The notes beneath the pieces were generated by a model that searched no databases, was not told the origin of the DNA, and saw only the letters and a program-made list of their open reading frames with translations. A DNA stretch of 27,757 bases from a virus: positions 1-27,757 of IMG/VR virus record IMGVR_UViG_3300020411_002320. One strand, written 5' to 3'. Position numbers and translations under genes: made by a program. Below, piece by piece: positions 4,134 to 21,375 of the stretch. Position 1 is the stretch's first letter. Every line of letters starts with the position of its first letter.

Positions 4134-4364
4134 ATGTTATCACTCACTTTAACTTTTAGCGCATTAATATCCGTGCTTTTTCTGTGTGTTGGTGGTATAA
4201 TAGGTTGGTTATATCAACAACACGTTCAAACAACAACAATTCCTCTTTTACATCCAGAAATGTTTGATGAAAATGGAAATGTTGTTCCAGATGAAATTAT
4301 TTCATTTCGTTTTGAAGGCGTAGAGAACCTCATATCTGATGAGGGAGAATTCGAAGAAGATTAA
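4134..4364 (+). CDS. Small membrane-anchored protein
   Basis: The frame is open from 3978, overlapping the previous gene by 74 bases. ATG 4134 is preferred because AAAGGAG lies 5 nt upstream and the product then begins directly with a transmembrane helix (MLSLTLTFSALISVLFLCVG and on to GWLY). ATG 4065 is an alternative. A short soluble tail carries HPEMFDENGNVVPDEIISFR, ending strongly acidic. It is probably anchored in the host membrane with one helix, with the acidic tail cytoplasmic. Function is unknown. Confidence 0.7.
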   Translation: MLSLTLTFSALISVLFLCVGGIIGWLYQQHVQTTTIPLLHPEMFDENGNVVPDEIISFRFEGVENLISDEGEFEED

Positions 4365-5442: not shown

Positions 5443-5590
5443 AGAAATTGCACACAATCTTAGAGTATTAGCTGAGAGTTTAGAAGATGCAATTAAAGAA
5501 GATGCTTCTTCTTATACCAGAGATAGAACATCCGAATCATACTCTGTTTCGACAGCATCATACGATGAAATTTTTGAAGATTCTGAATAA
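5423..5590 (+). CDS. Small acidic helical protein, unknown
   Basis: The frame is open from 5372, but ATG 5423 is best supported: GGAGGTGAT just upstream is a strong ribosome-binding site. It encodes 55 residues: a helix (YQKVKEIAHNLRVLAESLED) followed by a Ser/Asp/Glu-rich tail (SYSVSTASYDEIFEDSE). Its stop shares a base with the thyX start (TAATG), so the pair is probably translationally coupled. Function is unknown. Confidence 0.75.
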   Translation: MNYQKVKEIAHNLRVLAESLEDAIKEDASSYTRDRTSESYSVSTASYDEIFEDSE

Positions 5591-6228
5591 TGAATGTAAA
5601 ACTTGTTACTGTTACTCCTAATGCGGAGCAACTCATGGCGTATGTCGCCAGAGTATCTAATCCTTCCAATCAGGACAATGAAAAATATGCAGGACTATTA
5701 AAGTACTGTATCAAACATAATCATTGGAGTGTTTTTGAACAATCTTCTATGACATTGGAGATTGAAACTACCCGTGCTATTGCTGCACAAATATTAAGAC
5801 ATCGTAGTTTTACATTTCAAGAATTTTCTCAGAGATATGCTAAGAGTACAGATTTGGGTGAAATACCTTTACCTAAACTGAGAAAACAAGATGAAAAGAA
5901 TCGTCAAAATTCTACTGATGACTTAGATGAATTTTTAGTTCAAGGTTTTGAATTAGAAATGCAAACGTTGTTTAAGAATGCAACAGATTTGTACAAAAGG
6001 ATGACTGATTGTGGTGTTGCGAAAGAATCTGCAAGGTTTGTACTACCACTTGCTACTCCTACAAGGATCTATATGACAGGTTCTTGTCGTTCTTGGATAC
6101 ATTATATTAATCTAAGATCTGCACATGGAACTCAAAAAGAACATATGCAGATTGCAGAAGCGTGTAGAGAAGTTTTTGTCGAACAATTTCCTATCGTATC
6201 AGAAGCTCTTGATTGGGTTTCTAAATAA
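5590..6228 (+). CDS. thyX: Flavin-dependent thymidylate synthase
   Basis: A 212-residue ThyX. The signature RHR-x7-S is present as R70-H71-R72 to S80 (RHRSFTFQEFSQR). HNHWSVFEQSSMTLEIE upstream and RFVLPLATPTRIYMTGSCRS downstream are typical folate, FAD and dUMP-site regions. The enzyme methylates dUMP using methylenetetrahydrofolate and FADH2, supplying dTMP for replication. It begins within the previous stop (TAATG). Its own stop lies in a CTAAATA box that may start the next transcript. Marine picocyanobacteria themselves use ThyX, so host origin is plausible. Confidence 0.97.
   Translation: MNVKLVTVTPNAEQLMAYVARVSNPSNQDNEKYAGLLKYCIKHNHWSVFEQSSMTLEIETTRAIAAQILRHRSFTFQEFSQRYAKSTDLGEIPLPKLRKQDEKNRQNSTDDLDEFLVQGFELEMQTLFKNATDLYKRMTDCGVAKESARFVLPLATPTRIYMTGSCRSWIHYINLRSAHGTQKEHMQIAEACREVFVEQFPIVSEALDWVSK
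6221..6227 (+). promoter_or_regulatory. Candidate late promoter box (CTAAATA)
   Basis: CTAAATA overlaps the thyX stop, 24 nt before the next ATG (6252), which lacks a Shine-Dalgarno. The spacing matches other TAAATA boxes in this window. Confidence 0.35.
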
Positions 6229-6251: not shown

Positions 6252-6497
6252 ATGCCTACTTATCCTGTGATTAACCAGAAAACTGGTGAGACTAAAGAAA
6301 TGAATATGTCCATTAAATCTTATGATGAATGGAAGGAAGCAAATCCTGACTGGGATAAAGACTGGTCTAAAGGATGTGCTGGCGTTGGCGAAGTCGGAGA
6401 ATGGAAAGACAAACTTACAAAAAAATATCCTGGATGGAACCAAGTTCTTGACAAGGTAGGTAAGTCTCCGAAAGCTAACGTTGGACGTATTCGATAA
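6252..6497 (+). CDS. Small conserved-type phage protein before phoH
   Basis: An 81-residue frame beginning MPTYPVINQKTGETKEMNMS, then a WKEANPDWDKDWSKGCAGVG block and a basic tail (KSPKANVGRIR). The opening resembles the first strand pair of small FmdB-type zinc ribbons (M-P-x-Y), but the required cysteine pairs are absent, with only one Cys present, so a metal site is unlikely. It is coupled to phoH: the last base of its stop is the first base of the phoH start (TAATG). Function is unknown. Confidence 0.8.
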   Translation: MPTYPVINQKTGETKEMNMSIKSYDEWKEANPDWDKDWSKGCAGVGEVGEWKDKLTKKYPGWNQVLDKVGKSPKANVGRIR

Positions 6498-7249
6498 TGG
6501 CAAAGAAAAAATCAGATCTTCCTATCGGTGTAGGAATGACGGCTAAACAAATGAAACGTAAAAAACCTATTAACGCAGATCTTTTTACAAAGATCGAACC
6601 CGTAACAGATAACCAAAGAAAGTTGTTTGATGGTTATGCTGCAGGTAAACATATTTTTGCATATGGTTGTGCAGGTACTGGTAAAACATTTGTAGCTCTC
6701 TATTTGGCATTGCAAGATATACTGGATCAAACAACACCTTATAATTCAGTTTATATTGTAAGATCTCTCGTCTCAACAAGAGAGATTGGATTCTTGCCTG
6801 GAGATCATGAGGATAAATCCTCATTGTATCAGATACCATATAAGAATATGGTTAAGTATATGTTTGAGATGCCTACAGATGCAGACTTTGAGATGTTGTA
6901 TGGTAATCTAAAACAACAAGAGACAATTAAATTCTGGAGTACATCATTTATTCGTGGTACAACTCTTGATAAAGCAATAGTTCTTGTAGATGAATCACAA
7001 AACTTGAATTTTCACGAATTAGATAGTATAATTACTCGTGTGGGTGAAGATGCCAAAATTATTTTCTGTGGAGATGCAAGTCAAACAGATCTTCTCAAAC
7101 TTAATGAGAAGAATGGCATTCTTGACTTTATGAAGATCATTGAACAAATGCCTGATCAATTTCAAATGGTTGAATTTGGTATTAATGATATTGTTCGATC
7201 TGGTCTTGTAAGGGAATACCTCATTCGAAAAATGGCCTTAGGTATGTAA
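6497..7249 (+). CDS. phoH: PhoH-like P-loop ATPase
   Basis: A 250-residue PhoH-family protein. The Walker A motif GCAGTGKT is at 57-64 and Walker B AIVLVDESQN at 160-169. The PhoH-typical VRSLVSTREIGFLPGD (88-103) and IIFCGDASQTDL follow. An N-terminal Lys-rich extension precedes the ATPase core. PhoH is widespread in marine phages. It was first linked to phosphate starvation and is related to the ATPase half of helicases; its role in infection is unsettled. Start and stop overlap both neighbours, pointing to a coupled operon. No pho box is visible upstream. Confidence 0.96.
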   Translation: MAKKKSDLPIGVGMTAKQMKRKKPINADLFTKIEPVTDNQRKLFDGYAAGKHIFAYGCAGTGKTFVALYLALQDILDQTTPYNSVYIVRSLVSTREIGFLPGDHEDKSSLYQIPYKNMVKYMFEMPTDADFEMLYGNLKQQETIKFWSTSFIRGTTLDKAIVLVDESQNLNFHELDSIITRVGEDAKIIFCGDASQTDLLKLNEKNGILDFMKIIEQMPDQFQMVEFGINDIVRSGLVREYLIRKMALGM

Positions 7250-12021: not shown

Positions 12022-12214
12022 AATAAATGATGTAAATATTGGATTTGCTGGTGCAAAGACAATTATTGATGAACATGGATGGGCAAAACGAGCACCCATC
12101 TCTGATAGACAATGTATTAGACAAGCATTGCATAATTCTATAAATCTTGCTGGACTTGACAAAGAACAAGTAAAAAGGTTATATTTAAAGTATGGTGGAA
12201 AAAAAGTATTATGA
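12011..12214 (+). CDS. Small unknown protein between petE and purM
   Basis: A 67-residue frame starting inside the petE end and overlapping purM by ATGA, so it is coupled on both sides. The N-terminus is mixed (NDVNIGFAGAKTIIDEHGWA), followed by a helix with RQCIRQALHNSINLAGLDKE and a basic tail. There is no membrane segment and only one Cys. The family is not recognised. Its position suggests co-expression with plastocyanin and the purine enzyme, not a shared activity. Confidence 0.75.
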   Translation: MSNKINDVNIGFAGAKTIIDEHGWAKRAPISDRQCIRQALHNSINLAGLDKEQVKRLYLKYGGKKVL

Positions 12215-13137
12215 ATTATAAGGATGCAGGTGTTGATATTGAGTCTGGAAACAAATTTGTAGAAAGACTCAGAGAAAAAGCACCTGGCATTGGTGGATTT
12301 GGTGGTTTGTTTAAAGTACCTGATGGGTATGAGAAACCTGTTTTAGTATCTGGTGCTGATGGTGTCGGAACTAAAATGAATATTTGTCAGATTGCTGGAG
12401 ATTATACTACTATTGGTATAGATCTTGTTGCCATGTGTGTTAACGATGTGATTACATCTGGTGCTAAACCATTATACTTTTTGGATTATGTCTCTACTAA
12501 AAAGATAGATGAGAATGTTGCTGACATTATGGTTGGTATTCTTAAAGGGTGTGAGATAGCAGGTTTAGAACTTATAGGTGGAGAGACTGCTGAACATTTT
12601 AGACAGAATGATTATGATCTTGCAGGTTTTTGTACGGGTATTGTAGAAGAAAGTGAAATAATAGATGGTAAATTAATTCAATCAGGTGATAAAATTATTG
12701 GTATAGAAAGTAGTGGGTTGCATAGTAATGGTTATACTTTGATTAATGATATGTTATGGAGACATAAGATTTTCTATAAAGAGACACCAGAATTAATTAC
12801 ACCAACAACCATCTATGCACCATTGGTTATGGATTTATTAGAAGAGTTTCCTATTCTTGGTATGTCACATATCACTGGTGGCGGTATACCAGGAAATATT
12901 TCAAGATGTATTCCTGATGGATTGAATGCACATATTGATTATGATTCTTGGCCATTATCAAAACTCTTTAGTAAGATTCAACTTGCTGGTGAGATTCCTC
13001 CAGAAGAAATGAAGAGAGTGTTTAATCTTGGTATTGGATATTGTTTAGTAGTTCCTGAAGATGCAGTAGTTGATGTTGAATTAAGAATAAATGGTCATGG
13101 ATTTAACTCTTGGGTAATAGGTGAAGTCACTAAATAA
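12211..13137 (+). CDS. purM: Phosphoribosylformylglycinamidine cyclo-ligase (AIR synthetase)
   Basis: A 308-residue PurM, shorter than the usual ~345. Visible motifs are SGADGVGTK (47-55), DLVAMCVNDVITSGAKPLYF (71-90), LIGGETAEH (121-129), ESSGLHSNGYTL and the C-terminal-domain MSHITGGGIPGN. It closes the imidazole ring of AIR using ATP in purine synthesis and would raise purine supply for phage DNA. The shortfall lies mostly at the ends, so the catalytic core appears complete. Start overlaps the previous stop. Its stop sits in a CTAAATA box leading to petF. Confidence 0.96.
   Translation: MNYKDAGVDIESGNKFVERLREKAPGIGGFGGLFKVPDGYEKPVLVSGADGVGTKMNICQIAGDYTTIGIDLVAMCVNDVITSGAKPLYFLDYVSTKKIDENVADIMVGILKGCEIAGLELIGGETAEHFRQNDYDLAGFCTGIVEESEIIDGKLIQSGDKIIGIESSGLHSNGYTLINDMLWRHKIFYKETPELITPTTIYAPLVMDLLEEFPILGMSHITGGGIPGNISRCIPDGLNAHIDYDSWPLSKLFSKIQLAGEIPPEEMKRVFNLGIGYCLVVPEDAVVDVELRINGHGFNSWVIGEVTK
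13130..13136 (+). promoter_or_regulatory. Candidate late promoter box (CTAAATA) before petF
   Basis: CTAAATA overlaps the purM stop, 22 nt before ATG 13159. It has the same box and spacing as other genes here. Confidence 0.4.
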
Positions 13138-16499: not shown

Positions 16500-17351
16500 G
16501 TGGGATTTCCGACAAGAGGACAAATATTTCAAGAACCTGTAGATAGGGTAAAGTCTAGTATAGCTAAACCTTCTATTGATACCTTTTACCAAGTAAGTTT
16601 TTCTTTTGGTAATTATGATAAATGGTTGGGTAATACAATACCATCTGGTTCTGCGAGAGTTAACGGATTAGATTGGCAAAGAAAGTTAAGTCTTTTATGT
16701 GCTGAAGCTGAAATACCAGGTACATCTTATGAAACTACAACGGTTACAAGTAATCGTCAGGGTATAGAAGAAAGTTTTCCAATACAGAGAAATTTTCCAG
16801 ATCTTAATTTAGGTTTTTATGTTGATGCAGATCATGTAGTTATTCAAGTACTTGAGAGTTGGATGTTATATATTAATCCTATGACAACTGCTAATAGAAA
16901 TAAAAATGCATATGGTAGATTTAGATACCCAGATACTTATAAAGAGATTCTTCATATAACCAAGTATGAAAGAGATACGTTTAATAAGGGATCGGAGTCT
17001 AAAGATTATAAAGGTATGATGGCTTATGAGTTTGTAAATGTTTGGCCTACAAATTTACAATCAATGAAAGTTGCCTATGGTGAATCTAATGTGTTAAGAT
17101 GTAATTTAACACTTGCATATGATAGGTATTTTGCAGATTACAATGCTGTTGGAAGACATTATGCGGTAGAATCAACTCCAGATGATTTTTCTAATAGGAT
17201 TTTAAAAGGACAAGGAAATAAAAATGTCCTTACTAATCCAAATAGAAGAGGAGGAAGACGTGGTGGACGTAGTAAAGAACTTGCTAAAGTCGCTGCTACT
17301 GCTTATGCTGGTCCTTTAGGTGGTCTTGCAGTTGATACATTCTGGGGTTGA
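16500..17351 (+). CDS. 54: Baseplate tail-tube initiator gp54
   Basis: A 283-residue protein starting at GTG 16500; no in-frame ATG precedes the conserved start GFPTRGQIFQEPV. The tube-fold pattern is clear: TFYQVSFSFGNYDKWL, LLCAEAEIPGTSYETTTVTS, then RQGIEESFPIQRNF, and VLESWMLYINP. These are typical of gp54/gp19-like tube proteins. gp54 binds the gp48-capped baseplate and nucleates the tail tube. The C-terminal tail is basic and Gly-rich (RRGGRRGGRSKE), then hydrophobic. It heads the long plus-strand tail and hub module. Confidence 0.82.
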   Translation: MGFPTRGQIFQEPVDRVKSSIAKPSIDTFYQVSFSFGNYDKWLGNTIPSGSARVNGLDWQRKLSLLCAEAEIPGTSYETTTVTSNRQGIEESFPIQRNFPDLNLGFYVDADHVVIQVLESWMLYINPMTTANRNKNAYGRFRYPDTYKEILHITKYERDTFNKGSESKDYKGMMAYEFVNVWPTNLQSMKVAYGESNVLRCNLTLAYDRYFADYNAVGRHYAVESTPDDFSNRILKGQGNKNVLTNPNRRGGRRGGRSKELAKVAATAYAGPLGGLAVDTFWG

Positions 17352-17389: not shown

Positions 17390-18115
17390 ATGCCATTACC
17401 AACAATTACGACTCCTACTTATGAGTTGAAACTTCATTCAAATGGGAAGACAATAAAATATAGACCTTTCCTTGTAAAAGAAGAAAAAATATTAATTCTT
17501 GCATTAGAATCTCAAAGTCAAAAAGAAATTACAACCGCAGTTAAAGATGTACTTAAAAAATGCATTTTAACAAGAGGTGTTAAAGTTGATGAATTACCAA
17601 CTTTTGATATTGAACATTTGTTTTTGAATATTCGTGCTAAGTCAATTGGAGAAGCTATTGATCTTACAGTAACTTGTCCTGATGATGGTGAAACTCAAGT
17701 TCCTGTCAGAATTTATGTGGATGAAATTAAAGTACAAACTCCAGAAGGTCATACAAAGGATATTGTTTTAGATGATAAAATGACTTTGAGAATGAAGTAT
17801 CCATCTTTAGAACAGTTTATTGAAAATAATTTTAATGTTAATGAAAAACCAGAAAAGATTGTGGATAAAACATTTAAAGTGATTGCAGATTGTATGGATA
17901 CTATTTTTACTGAGGAAGAATCTTGGGATTCTAAAGATTATTCTCCAAAAGAAAGACTTGAATTTGTAGAACAATTGAGTTCAAAACAGTATAAAAAGGT
18001 TGAACAGTTCTTTGGTACAATGCCAAAACTTTCTCATACTTTCACAGTGAAAAATCCTGAGACTGATGTTGAAAATGAGATCGTTTTGGAGGGTCTTGCT
18101 GATTTTTTCGCCTAA
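17390..18115 (+). CDS. 26: Baseplate hub assembly protein gp26 (T4_baseplate family)
   Basis: A 241-residue protein of the T4 gp26 family (T4_baseplate). Signature segments are YRPFLVKEEKILILALESQS near residues 25-44, KDVLKKCILTRGV, FDIEHLFLNIRAKSIGE and the VTCPDDGETQVPV strand. T4 gp26 is required for hub assembly. Upstream is a CTAAATA box. The last codons read GAT-TTT-TTC-GCC-TAA, placing a T-TTT-TTC slippery heptamer in frame, preceded by GGAGGG. A -1 slip there would replace the last residue with a 66-residue gp51-like domain, giving a 306-residue fusion. Both the short form and the fusion are expected, as for gpG/gpGT. Confidence 0.9.
   Translation: MPLPTITTPTYELKLHSNGKTIKYRPFLVKEEKILILALESQSQKEITTAVKDVLKKCILTRGVKVDELPTFDIEHLFLNIRAKSIGEAIDLTVTCPDDGETQVPVRIYVDEIKVQTPEGHTKDIVLDDKMTLRMKYPSLEQFIENNFNVNEKPEKIVDKTFKVIADCMDTIFTEEESWDSKDYSPKERLEFVEQLSSKQYKKVEQFFGTMPKLSHTFTVKNPETDVENEIVLEGLADFFA
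18088..18109 (+). promoter_or_regulatory. Candidate programmed -1 frameshift signal
   Basis: The slippery heptamer T-TTT-TTC (18103-18109) is in the zero frame of gp26. GGAGGG (18088-18093) lies nine bases upstream, close to the Shine-Dalgarno stimulator spacing known from E. coli dnaX. The gp26 stop follows one codon later. The -1 frame has TGA at 18100-18102, so it opens only at the heptamer. No convincing downstream stem was found by eye. Confidence 0.65.
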
Positions 18116-18309
18116 GTATTGCAAGGGAGGATTTGGAGTCTTATTATAAGATTAATTTCGCTCTCATGCAATACCATAAATATAGCTTGACAGAGATTGA
18201 AAATATGATTCCTTGGGAAAGAGAAATCTATCTTGCCCTTCTTAGGGATTACATTGAACATGAGAATCTGAAACAACAACAAAGAGAAGGCGTACAGAAG
18301 TATGGGTGA
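18103..18309 (+). CDS. 51: gp51/tail-assembly-chaperone-like frame reached by -1 frameshift
   Basis: This frame opens after TGA 18100-18102 and runs to TGA 18307-18309, overlapping the next gene by eight bases. Read after the slip it encodes 66 residues: RLSIAREDLESYYKINFALM, then YHKYSLTEIENMIPWE, then REIYLALLRDYIEHEN and a Gln/Lys tail. This helical pattern fits the second-frame domain of phage tail-assembly chaperones and, by position after gp26, T4 gp51. As a free gene it would need TTG 18133, whose GGAGG is only two bases away, or ATG 18166, which cuts off the first 19 residues. Frameshift expression is therefore favoured. The direct neighbour is the tape-measure candidate, as expected for this chaperone. 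Confidence 0.7.
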   Translation, partial: FFRLSIAREDLESYYKINFALMQYHKYSLTEIENMIPWEREIYLALLRDYIEHENLKQQQREGVQKYG

Positions 18310-20470
18310 AGAAACTCCCAATAAGATAAATTTAGAATCCTTTTTTGGTGGAGGAGGACAGGAATCTTTTACTGATCCTCTATCTCAAGAAGCATTGGGT
18401 TTGGCGAATCAGGGTGTTTCTGTTGCGAATGAGAATAGACTTAATTTAAATAATTTAATTAGTACATTATCAATAGATTTTGGTAAGACGAGTATTAATA
18501 TTAAAAATGAATATGTACAGAATACTATTTTCCAGTTAGAAAGTGGACTCAAAGCTTTAGAGAATTCAGTAGATATATTGCATGGTGATGTAGATTCAGT
18601 ATCTACCACATTAATTGGTTTACGAGAACAAAAGAAAAGGGAAGTAGAAGCTGCAGAACAATCTGTATTTGCACAACAAGATGCTTTACAAAAAGCAAGA
18701 AAAGAAGGTGGTGGTGTTAATCCAGAGGATAAGTTGATTCCTGGTTCTACAACTACAAAAGGAAAATCACCTGAAGACAAAGGTAATTTTATAGGTAATT
18801 TGATGGGTGCTATTGGAACTGCAATAACAGCCCCACTTGCATTACTTGGTGGTGGATTGCTGATAGCTCCTCAAATGACACAAAAGATAATAGGTCAAGT
18901 AGGAAAGACTCTTAATAAAGTACCTGGTGTTAAACAGGTAAAAAATTTAGGAGCAAAGATTAGTGGTGGTTTTAAGAGTTCTGTTCAAACTATAACGGGT
19001 AAAGGTGCAGGTAAAAAAATAGCGACAGAAGGTTTAGAAACTGGTGTTAAGACTGGTGCTAAGGGATTGTTTGGTGGAGGAGGTAAAGAAATAGTAAAAG
19101 AAGGTGGTGAACAATTATTAGAAACTGGTGCTAAGAAAGGTTTGTTTAAAGGATTATTTGGTGGAGGAGGTAAAAAAATAGCGACAGAAGGTGGTGAACA
19201 GTTACTGAAAAAGGGGTTAAGTACTGGTGCTAAAGTAGGTGTAGGTAAAGGATTGGGTAAAGGTTTACTTAAAAAAATTCCTGGTATTGGATTATTGATG
19301 GGTACTGGTTTTGCTGCTCATAGATTGATGCAAGGTGATGTAACAGGTGCAGGTCTTGAATTCGCATCTGGGGCAGCATCTACTGTTCCAGGATGGGGAA
19401 CTGGTCTCTCTTTTGGTATAGACGCTGGACTAATTGCTAGAGATGTGACGAGAGATGGGAGTGGAAAAGTAGATGATAAAGGAAAACCATCTGGTATAGA
19501 AAGTAAAAGTATTAGTACCAGTGAGAGTGCTACTTTGCAAAAAGGTCAAGTGGTATCTGGTAATATGAGTCAAGAAGATGCGGATAAATTATCAAAGAGA
19601 ATAGAGTTAGAGAAAGCAGCAAATAATGCAATGGATATCTATGGTTATGGTTCACCAGAACATAATGAAGTAAAGAAACAGATAATGATATTGAAAGGAA
19701 CTCCAGAAGAAGCCATCTATACAGATAAAAAAGGTAATCTTAGAACGAAAGGGTATTCAACATTTGAAGGTAAAACTACTATTTCTGGTGACAAAAAGAA
19801 AAAAGGTTGGTTTTCCAATTTGTTTAGTGGTAAAGATAAACCAAGGAAAGATAAACCAGAAGGTTCTAGTTCTGGTATCTTGGGAACAATAAGCAGTGAT
19901 CCTAAAGATATGGTTAATATGCCTGAAGGTAAAACCATAGGTGAAGGGGCTAAGATTGACACTGGTAAATTCTTGAATATGTCTACTCCACGAGAAGAAA
20001 GTAACTTTGGTGGAATGGGTAAATCAGATAAATCTCAAACAACTACCTCTACAAATAAAGAACAGTCTTTGGAGGAGAAAGCAAGGCTAAGAGGAATATT
20101 ATATCCAGATGCAACAATTGTCATTGGAGGAAAAACTGTTAAGGCAGGTACTATAGAATATGAACAAGCGATGGAAACTACAGGACAAGCTTTAAAGGGA
20201 TCACAAGCAGATGCATCAAAACCATTTGTTCCAACTGTGGGAAATAAAGATTTTGTGGATCAGATTAGTCAACCTCCTTCGAAAAATAAAAATGTTGTAG
20301 AGTTGCCTCCTATAAATTTGCCACCAGAGGGTGATATAACTGATGATGATAATCTAAATGATGCACCAAATGCTAATAATGGAGAAATATCTTCTGAAGA
20401 TGGTGGTATTCCTTTTATTAATCTTGTAGAAGGAAATGCTAATACAAATATGAATTTATTTGACTTCTAA
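18302..20470 (+). CDS. Putative tape measure / tail-length protein (gp29 position)
   Basis: A 722-residue protein and the second-longest frame in the window. Residues ~60-135 form a charged, heptad-like helix (LESGLKALENSVDILHGDVD, then EAAEQSVFAQQDALQKARKE). Then comes a hydrophobic Gly/Ala segment (NLMGAIGTAITAPLALLGGG), a Gly/Lys repeat region (~235-320) with GLFGGGGK and EGGEQLL copies, a second hydrophobic stretch, and a long low-complexity acidic tail. Such organisation and its place after the chaperone pair and before gp27 fit a tape measure or the T4 gp29 role. Direct similarity to T4 gp29 is not visible by eye. Confidence 0.65.
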   Translation: MGEETPNKINLESFFGGGGQESFTDPLSQEALGLANQGVSVANENRLNLNNLISTLSIDFGKTSINIKNEYVQNTIFQLESGLKALENSVDILHGDVDSVSTTLIGLREQKKREVEAAEQSVFAQQDALQKARKEGGGVNPEDKLIPGSTTTKGKSPEDKGNFIGNLMGAIGTAITAPLALLGGGLLIAPQMTQKIIGQVGKTLNKVPGVKQVKNLGAKISGGFKSSVQTITGKGAGKKIATEGLETGVKTGAKGLFGGGGKEIVKEGGEQLLETGAKKGLFKGLFGGGGKKIATEGGEQLLKKGLSTGAKVGVGKGLGKGLLKKIPGIGLLMGTGFAAHRLMQGDVTGAGLEFASGAASTVPGWGTGLSFGIDAGLIARDVTRDGSGKVDDKGKPSGIESKSISTSESATLQKGQVVSGNMSQEDADKLSKRIELEKAANNAMDIYGYGSPEHNEVKKQIMILKGTPEEAIYTDKKGNLRTKGYSTFEGKTTISGDKKKKGWFSNLFSGKDKPRKDKPEGSSSGILGTISSDPKDMVNMPEGKTIGEGAKIDTGKFLNMSTPREESNFGGMGKSDKSQTTTSTNKEQSLEEKARLRGILYPDATIVIGGKTVKAGTIEYEQAMETTGQALKGSQADASKPFVPTVGNKDFVDQISQPPSKNKNVVELPPINLPPEGDITDDDNLNDAPNANNGEISSEDGGIPFINLVEGNANTNMNLFDF
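19010..19192 (+). repeat. Internal repeat in the tape-measure candidate
   Basis: A 24-base block (19010-19033) beginning GGTAAAAAAATAGCG recurs exactly at 19169-19192, 159 bases (53 codons) away. GLFGGGGK, EGGEQLL and TGAK units repeat between and after. Unit number could vary with tail length. Confidence 0.8.
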
Positions 20471-21375
20471 TGACTATAACATCACAACAGTTACTAACGA
20501 ATATTAATAAACTGTATGACAGTGTTAAACATTCTTCTCAGAGAAATATGAATCTGAATCAAGGTTTTTTATCCAGTATGAAGAAGCTTAGTGACAAACA
20601 AATAGAATTAGAATCAAAAAAGACTAATATAATGAATGAGTTATCTTCTTTGACAGCAAGAGAAACTGGTGGACCAGTAACAAAAAATAAACCATATCTT
20701 GTAGGAGAAAGCGGGCCTGAGGTTTTTGTTCCTCAAGAAAAAGGTAATATTGTTTCTAATAGTTCTTTAAAAATGAGCGAACAGTTAGGACATACTAGAG
20801 GTGTCGTAACTGATCCAAAAGAGAAAGCACAACAAGAAGCATATATGCTCAAGTATGTTAATGAAGAAAGAAAGTTGCAGGGTTTAAAACCTTTAAAGAA
20901 ATTGAGTTATGCACAGGGGGTAGAACTTACAAAGATGATGGGTGCAGGTCCAAAAACAACAGAAACATCAGATACTCATTTTGATTTTGATAACATGATT
21001 AAGACTACATCAGAATCAAAAACAATGGGTGATAAATCCATAATGCGTGGTTCAATAGGTATGTTAACAGAAAAAGATAAGGAGGAGTATTTTGCAGCAA
21101 ATCCTGAAGCAAAACAACATTCAGACATGATGGAGGAGTTTAAATTAGATGCTTTAAGTGCTGATATAAATCAAAATGTTTCAGCACAAAAAAATAATAA
21201 TAATAATATCGGACAGTTAAATACTAATATGGGAGGTGAACAACAAATATTACTTCAAAGAGTAATAAAAACTAATACTATTACTCGGAAGGTAGGTTCT
21301 AATCAGAACACGACTGTTCCTATACCTGTACCTGTTGCTAATCAAATTAAATCAATTGCTTCTAAGTTAAGTTAA
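20470..21375 (+). CDS. Structural protein with tape-measure signature motif
   Basis: A 301-residue protein starting inside the previous stop (TAATG). Residues 1-60 are helical. Residues ~67-97 carry GGPVTKNKPYLVGESGPEVF followed by VPQEKGNI, the motif commonly found near the C-terminus of tape-measure proteins in siphoviruses (GG-x-V..YLVGE-x-GPE-x-F-x-P). A later block (MLKYVNEERKLQGLKPLKKL) weakly recalls the start of a CAP domain. A poly-Asn run and a Pro/Val tail (TVPIPVPVANQ) follow. It may be a second part of a split tape measure, or a hub protein. It overlaps gp27 by one base. Confidence 0.7.
   Translation: MTITSQQLLTNINKLYDSVKHSSQRNMNLNQGFLSSMKKLSDKQIELESKKTNIMNELSSLTARETGGPVTKNKPYLVGESGPEVFVPQEKGNIVSNSSLKMSEQLGHTRGVVTDPKEKAQQEAYMLKYVNEERKLQGLKPLKKLSYAQGVELTKMMGAGPKTTETSDTHFDFDNMIKTTSESKTMGDKSIMRGSIGMLTEKDKEEYFAANPEAKQHSDMMEEFKLDALSADINQNVSAQKNNNNNIGQLNTNMGGEQQILLQRVIKTNTITRKVGSNQNTTVPIPVPVANQIKSIASKLS

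Follow-up and report, generated by a model that had tools for sequence, protein, structure and literature searches.

The gp26 locus and its neighbouring genes

The stretch of DNA analysed here (the window) is a 27,757-base virus fragment from IMG/VR, which its gene content and closest named relatives place among the T4-like cyanophages. Inspection of its translations revealed psbA (D1), transaldolase-like, thyX, phoH-like and purM genes (3-974, 1827-2483, 5590-6228, 6497-7249 and 12211-13137, respectively), all of them typical cyanophage genes. The features at and around gp26 are the following, all on the + strand.

16500..17351, +: tail-tube-like gene (gp19/gp54 family context) upstream of gp26; phrog_45, E 2.5e-30, and Pfam Phage_TTP_2
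17390..18115, +: gp26 homologue, putative short form of a tail-assembly chaperone (TAC-N), 241 aa plus TAA; PF12322, phrog_150 and AlphaFold (AF2) model
18088..18093, +: GGAGGG, candidate internal Shine-Dalgarno-like stimulator; anti-SD duplex energy and GAG bias
18103..18109, +: slippery heptamer T_TTT_TTC, with TTT TTC as P- and A-site codons; 127/128 relatives and 18/22 isolate junctions
18103..18309, +: -1 frame encoding a putative TAC-C domain (gp51-like); 68 codons counted from the heptamer, then the stop; phrog matches and pN/pS
18113..18115, +: TAA of the 0 frame, terminating the short form; read from the sequence
18116..18174, +: predicted RNA stem-loop; z -7.1, mean z of relatives -3.1, covariation in the sister clade
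18116-18123 / 18167-18174, +: outer stem of the stem-loop, 8 bp, GTATTGCA with TGCAATAC
18125-18131 / 18158-18165, +: inner stem, with one unpaired base on the 3' side
18137-18153, +: apical hairpin of the stem-loop
18302..20470, +: tape-measure candidate, first part, 722 aa; position and annotated equivalents
20470..21375, +: tape-measure candidate, second part, 301 aa, with the PYLVGESGPEVFVPQ motif; phrog matches

The gp26 product matched Pfam family PF12322 (T4_baseplate) with an E value of 1.8e-73 and a score of 247 bits, against a curated cut-off of 24.5, and it matched phrog_150 (baseplate hub) with an E value of 2e-77. Its gene ends in the codons GAT TTT TTC GCC TAA. The initial annotation had read a slippery T TTT TTC in this ending, and the heptamer proved exact to the base, in the right phase for a -1 shift; it follows the X_XXY_YYZ pattern of -1 frameshift sites and lies within the overlap of both frames. 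The -1 frame was likewise as first described, with a TGA at 18100-18102, an opening at 18103 and a stop at 18307-18309, and it encodes 66 residues past the two Phe. This 66-residue part matched phrog_634 ("baseplate hub assembly catalyst") with an E value of 3e-26. A second match, with an E value of 1e-7, was to the C-terminal portion of phrog_150 and implies that some phrog_150 members hold both domains in one chain.

The start of the next ORF (18302..20470) overlaps the end of the -1 ORF by 8 nt. Its designation as a tape-measure candidate is upheld by position and by the annotation of its equivalents, which in HTVC008M (a Pelagibacter phage) and Cr30 (a Caulobacter phage) are labelled tape measure. 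The 722-aa first part itself matched no tape-measure profile; the motif sits in the second ORF rather than in the immediate neighbour of gp26, and that ORF matched phrog_5062, phrog_10574 and phrog_1538 ("tail length tape measure") with E values of 5e-6 to 5e-5. As in other TAC-N/TAC-NC systems, the putative chaperone gene of the window adjoins the tape-measure candidate. The window's candidate is split into two ORFs (722 + 301 aa) with a TAATG overlap between them. S-PM2 and P-SSM4 have a single tape-measure ORF of >1000 aa, and in many IMG/VR relatives the first tape-measure ORF is ~400-800 aa long and stops close to a new ATG. Several cyanophage records label the gene after the -1 ORF as endolysin, peptidase or late control D.

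The slippery heptamer and its flanking elements

Comparisons were made across 159 IMG/VR loci and the gp26 junctions of public phage genomes. In all 158 sequences in which both parts were found, the position of the second part was the same and its frame was -1, and TTTTTTC occurred within the last 16 nt of gp26 in 127 of 128 distinct coding sequences from the IMG/VR relatives. The sole exception (L122) has an apparent deletion at the gp26 end, with its second part still in the -1 frame. The + strand of the 27.8-kb window holds five occurrences of TTTTTTC, so that one in the right phase and no more than about 12 nt from a particular stop has a chance expectation of roughly 1e-3; the presence of the heptamer in 127 of 128 distinct relatives excludes chance. 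Moreover, the Phe pair was invariably TTT-TTC, though in these genes TTC accounts for just 21% of Phe codons. The codon before this pair always ended in T (AGT 47, GAT 36, GCT 17, TCT 16 and AAT 11), with the amino acid varying between Ser, Asp, Ala and Asn; in the background, just 35% of Ala codons are GCT and 58% of Ser codons are AGT or TCT.

Among isolates with many different hosts, 18 of 22 gp26 junctions carried an in-phase T-run heptamer (TTTTTTC, TTTTTTT or TTTTTTG). These included cyanophages, pelagiphage HTVC008M and Methylophilales phage Melnitz-1; Vibrio phage V09, Aeromonas phages 65 and Aeh1, Cronobacter phage S13 and Citrobacter phage Ci1; and phages phiM7, ORM_20, Milchi, Cr30, X1 and RHph_Y68. 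The run comprises seven Ts in HTVC008M, Melnitz-1 and Cr30 and six in the window. The junction comparison proposed in the initial annotation confirmed conservation of the heptamer. A search of IMG/VR with ORM_20 gp26 returned no relatives. In a scan of synonymous conservation by pairwise codon identity, the heptamer codons scored high, as did codons near the gp26 start; since this signal is not unique to the heptamer, the case rests on the invariant heptamer and on the covariation described below.

Some lineages deviate. Vibrio phages D510 (L169) and K474 (L187) and Pseudomonas phage Cygsa01 (L189) encode the domain in the -1 frame but lack a slippery heptamer, and their stop shares bases with an ATG (TAATG); this pattern suggests a switch of the lineage to translational coupling. 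An ATG combined with loss of the slippery run had been named at the outset as the pattern that would count against a frameshift; it occurs in these three phages and is absent from 127 of 128 relatives. In Stenotrophomonas phage IME-SM1 (L168, 1980-3015), the C-terminal domain follows GAGGATTTTTCGG in a frame +1 (or -2) to that of gp26, and the junction holds no in-phase heptamer; this genus possibly uses a different kind of frameshift. Because of these phages, the -1 frameshift is not universal.

The GGAGGG reported nine bases before the heptamer is indeed present, at 18088-18093. Among the relatives, anti-SD pairing was strongest, at a mean of about -8.8 kcal/mol, in 8-mers that begin 15-17 nt before the heptamer. 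The Glu codon at this site was GAG in 114 of 127 sequences and GAA in 12, compared to a GAG background of 29% in the same genes; for Glu before Gly elsewhere in gp26, the counts were 18 GAA and 3 GAG. This codon bias argues that the anti-SD-binding site is under selection, and it supports the presence of an upstream SD-like stimulator at about 10 nt, the arrangement of bacterial-type -1 frameshift sites.

Downstream of the heptamer, the 60 nt from 18115 folded with -21.9 kcal/mol (z = -7.1 relative to dinucleotide shuffles), and the mean folding z over 60 relatives was -3.1. The window clade (36 sequences) has the GTATTGCA/TGCAATAC stem together with the inner stem, and 76 other relatives have instead a 10-bp hairpin, GTATGGCTCA with TGAGTCATAC. 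In both stem types the spacer from heptamer to stem is 6 nt, within the 5-9 nt at which a structure is expected for -1 frameshifting. For the 10-bp hairpin of the sister clade, 92.7% of cells were paired in 66 distinct sequences, compared to 25-41% when the partner was slid by 1-3 columns, and changes on both sides were seen in 22 cells versus 5.1 +/- 1.7 after shuffling, with 0 of 500 shuffles as high. Shuffle controls leave relatedness in, and the counts of pair changes on the tree therefore matter. One hairpin pair, seen as U-A, G-C and A-U, underwent at least 15 state changes on the gp26 tree, and several single-lineage changes at this pair led straight to a different Watson-Crick pair; here, an Ala/Ser codon has a wobble base that tracks the middle base of the codon 14 nt downstream (GCT/GAG, GCG/GCG and GCA/GTG). 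The pair is broken in some lineages, e.g., in A-A and A-C cells.

Strong structure after the heptamer was also found in S-PM2, S-RSM4, MA01, Melnitz-1, ORM_20, Milchi and Cr30, and structure was weak or absent in Aeromonas 65, Aeh1, S13, Ci1, HTVC008M and RHph_Y68. In S-PM2 (L184), a 13-bp perfect hairpin (z -6.3) lies after the gp26 stop, near position 4238, and is unlike either stem type of the window and its relatives. No Rfam family matched at the frameshift site. Judged from sequence, the heptamer, the SD-like site and the stem constitute a predicted dnaX-like three-part -1 frameshift signal, and most T4-like phages that lie outside the group of T4 itself carry the same putative signal.

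Probable translation of the -1 frame

The first ATG of the window's -1 frame is at 18166, residue 20. The initial annotation had taken the first 19 residues of this frame to be free of ATG; this held for the window's clade and a few others, with the first ATG at codon 21 or later in 42 of 123 relatives (the window among them), but not in general, as ~65% of relatives have an early ATG (five codons past the heptamer in 78 of 123). In the 42 relatives that lack it, pN/pS upstream of the first ATG was 0.24 in the -1 frame and 1.31 and 1.10 in the other two. Selection ahead of any ATG indicates that the stretch is translated in the -1 frame, for which only a fusion offers a simple explanation.

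The second ORF could instead represent a separate small protein, gp51, translated either from a dedicated start codon or by ribosomes that terminate at the gp26 stop and reinitiate. The ATG five codons past the heptamer in 78 of 123 relatives is what such a gene would have, and most public annotations so read it, with records that annotate distinct gp51 ORFs from such ATGs; the TAATG coupling in D510, K474 and Cygsa01, without a heptamer, points the same way. However, an SD-like core of at least 5 nt at usable spacing preceded the first ATG in none of the 123 relatives (a 4-mer core in one), and in the sister clade the in-frame ATG falls within the downstream stem. A separate gene would also fail to account for the strong selection on upstream residues in the 42 relatives with a late ATG, for the invariant heptamer and for the SD-like site nine bases before it, and T4 gp51 is itself a fused protein, as described below. 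We therefore consider a separate gp51 improbable as the explanation of this locus. In the ~65% of relatives with an early in-frame ATG, reinitiation could add a separate product to the fusion. An independent start at TTG 18133 after AGGGAGG was rejected, given its 2-nt spacing, its position inside the stem and its lack of conservation.

Public records treat this region unevenly. ORF annotation is inconsistent among the records L160, L162, L185, L178 and L170, with a separate gp51 annotated from differing starts or absent, and the -1 ORF is unannotated altogether in Aeh1, S13 and ORM_20. None of the public records viewed carries a joined two-frame annotation.

Slippage of RNA polymerase on the T run, with a base lost or gained in the mRNA, would likewise produce a fusion, and six Ts are available to it (seven in HTVC008M, Melnitz-1 and Cr30). 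Productive polymerase slippage usually needs runs longer than six Ts, however, and this mechanism would leave the conserved C, the SD-like site and the covarying stem unexplained, making it very improbable. Least probable of all, to the point of being negligible, is decay or mis-assembly of an in-frame fusion gene, with nothing programmed: although T4 gp51 and homologues do carry the two domains in one frame, conservation refutes this reading, with the same -1 relation and heptamer in >100 independent contigs and many isolate genomes and purifying selection on both frames.

Proposed short and long forms of one chaperone

T4 gp26 (208 aa) and T4 gp51 (249 aa) both belong to PF12322 (E 9e-64 and 4e-52, respectively), and gp51 spans phrog_150 to its end and also matches phrog_634. 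In the alignment, the T4 gp26 end (...GLKEFFELL) falls at about the column of the cyanophage short-form end (...GLADFFA), and T4 gp51 runs on beyond it into the C-terminal domain. The T4 proteins thus resemble the window's predicted pair, being of the same family, gp51 with and gp26 without the C-terminal domain; in T4 they come from two separate, divergently transcribed genes with no frameshift, whereas the window phage would use one gene and a -1 frameshift. These alignments indicate that one chaperone has its in-frame long form in T4 gp51 and its short form in T4 gp26, and that T4-like phages make a short and a long chaperone either by two genes or by frameshifting. In both arrangements the two forms share a common N-terminal domain, as TAC-N and TAC-NC do. 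The short form and a gp51-type long form were modelled with AlphaFold (mean pLDDT of 86.5 and 84.2, respectively); the two models have the same order of elements, with C-terminal helices added in the long form. When the short-form model was compared to the PDB with Foldseek, the HK97 tail assembly chaperone 2OB9 ranked second without reaching significance (E 0.75, probability 0.23); the long-form model had no significant match in the PDB, and the gp26 alignment, in a profile search, had none among solved structures. T4 gp26 and T4 gp51 are both classed as hub assembly chaperones; gp51 is needed for assembly and missing from the final particle (PMC3004832).

Altogether, comparative evidence strongly supports the programmed -1 frameshift that the initial annotation had proposed, namely, a conserved heptamer, an SD-like site, a stem and selection on the -1 frame. 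The gene at 17390-18309 very probably encodes a short and a frameshifted long tail-assembly chaperone with a shared N-terminal domain. Most ribosomes would translate gp26 to the TAA at 18113 and yield the 241-aa short form, TAC-N. On the heptamer T_TTT_TTC (18103-18109), some would shift backwards by one base as their two Phe-tRNAs re-pair with TTT TTT, and would then read the -1 frame to 18309, giving a long form, TAC-NC, of about 306 residues that carries the 66-residue helical C-terminal domain; the predicted tryptic junction peptide of this fusion is NPETDVENEIVLEGLADFFR. The slip would probably be stimulated from behind by pairing of GGAGGG with 16S rRNA and from ahead by the RNA stem 6 nt on. 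By analogy to lambda gpG/gpGT, both forms would form a coat on the tape-measure protein, whose gene comes next, would bring in tail-tube subunits and would be missing from the finished virion. We infer slippage in infected cells, the slippage efficiency and the chaperone function.

The comparison to lambda, drawn when the locus was first annotated, fits: gpG and gpGT are a short and a -1-frameshifted long chaperone encoded just before the tape measure, as in the window, and gp26 and T4 gp51 are the short and long form of one family. The slippery site of lambda is GGGAAAG, whereas the window has TTTTTTC with an upstream SD-like site and a downstream stem, and the two are likened by arrangement. 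In lambda the long:short ratio is near 1:30 (PMC5009743). Because the window has both an upstream SD-like site and a downstream stem, its ratio may exceed that of lambda. We tentatively suggest, as a possibility somewhat short of even, a complete dnaX-type cassette whose stem was rebuilt in at least two architectures (the 10-bp hairpin and the 8+7-bp long stem), with an efficiency far above lambda's few per cent and hence a TAC-N:TAC-NC ratio suited to long contractile tails.

Two further systems bear comparison. In the Vandenendeviridae, another phage family, the available part of the report on Pseudomonas phage Adele (PMC12846349) describes for the TAC a slippery region, in which a conserved GTTTTT close to the end of TAC-N is the site of the -1 shift, and an open -1 frame; as in the window, the TAC precedes the tape measure. 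E. coli dnaX resembles the window in its upstream SD, homopolymeric heptamer and stem-loop at short spacing. The dnaX heptamer is A_AAA_AAG and that of the window T_TTT_TTC, and the shifted product is the shorter one in dnaX but the longer one in the window.

The TAC-N and TAC-NC of T4-like phages were reportedly the subject of a 2022 study in Virology (566:9-15) by Vladimirov, Gautam and Davidson, which is known to us via citing papers. As far as the available parts of these papers relate, the study is cited in connection with TAC-N genes of T4-like phages that carry polyT frameshift signals (PMC12846349) and for some T4-like phages with separate short and long genes (PMC10274946). By these partial accounts, it concerned the same gene family and the same idea, a poly-T -1 shift in some groups and two genes elsewhere. 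Extension of the lambda rule to T4-type tails, offered as new in the initial annotation, was, on this showing, already published in 2022, which removes the surprise of the finding. We found no description of the downstream stem or its covariation in the literature consulted, and the primary 2022 study may contain one; the RNA hairpin at the cyanophage frameshift site may be a new detail.

Thus, the main conceptual step was in print by 2022, and the detail of the RNA stimulator is possibly new. The cyanophage gp51 ORF would be the frameshifted end of gp26, with no gene of its own, which explains why it is inconsistently annotated or missed. The two hub chaperones of T4 would be tied to one short/long pair, for which two genes or frameshifting are alternative solutions, and a very abundant group of marine phages would carry a compact, testable frameshift cassette.
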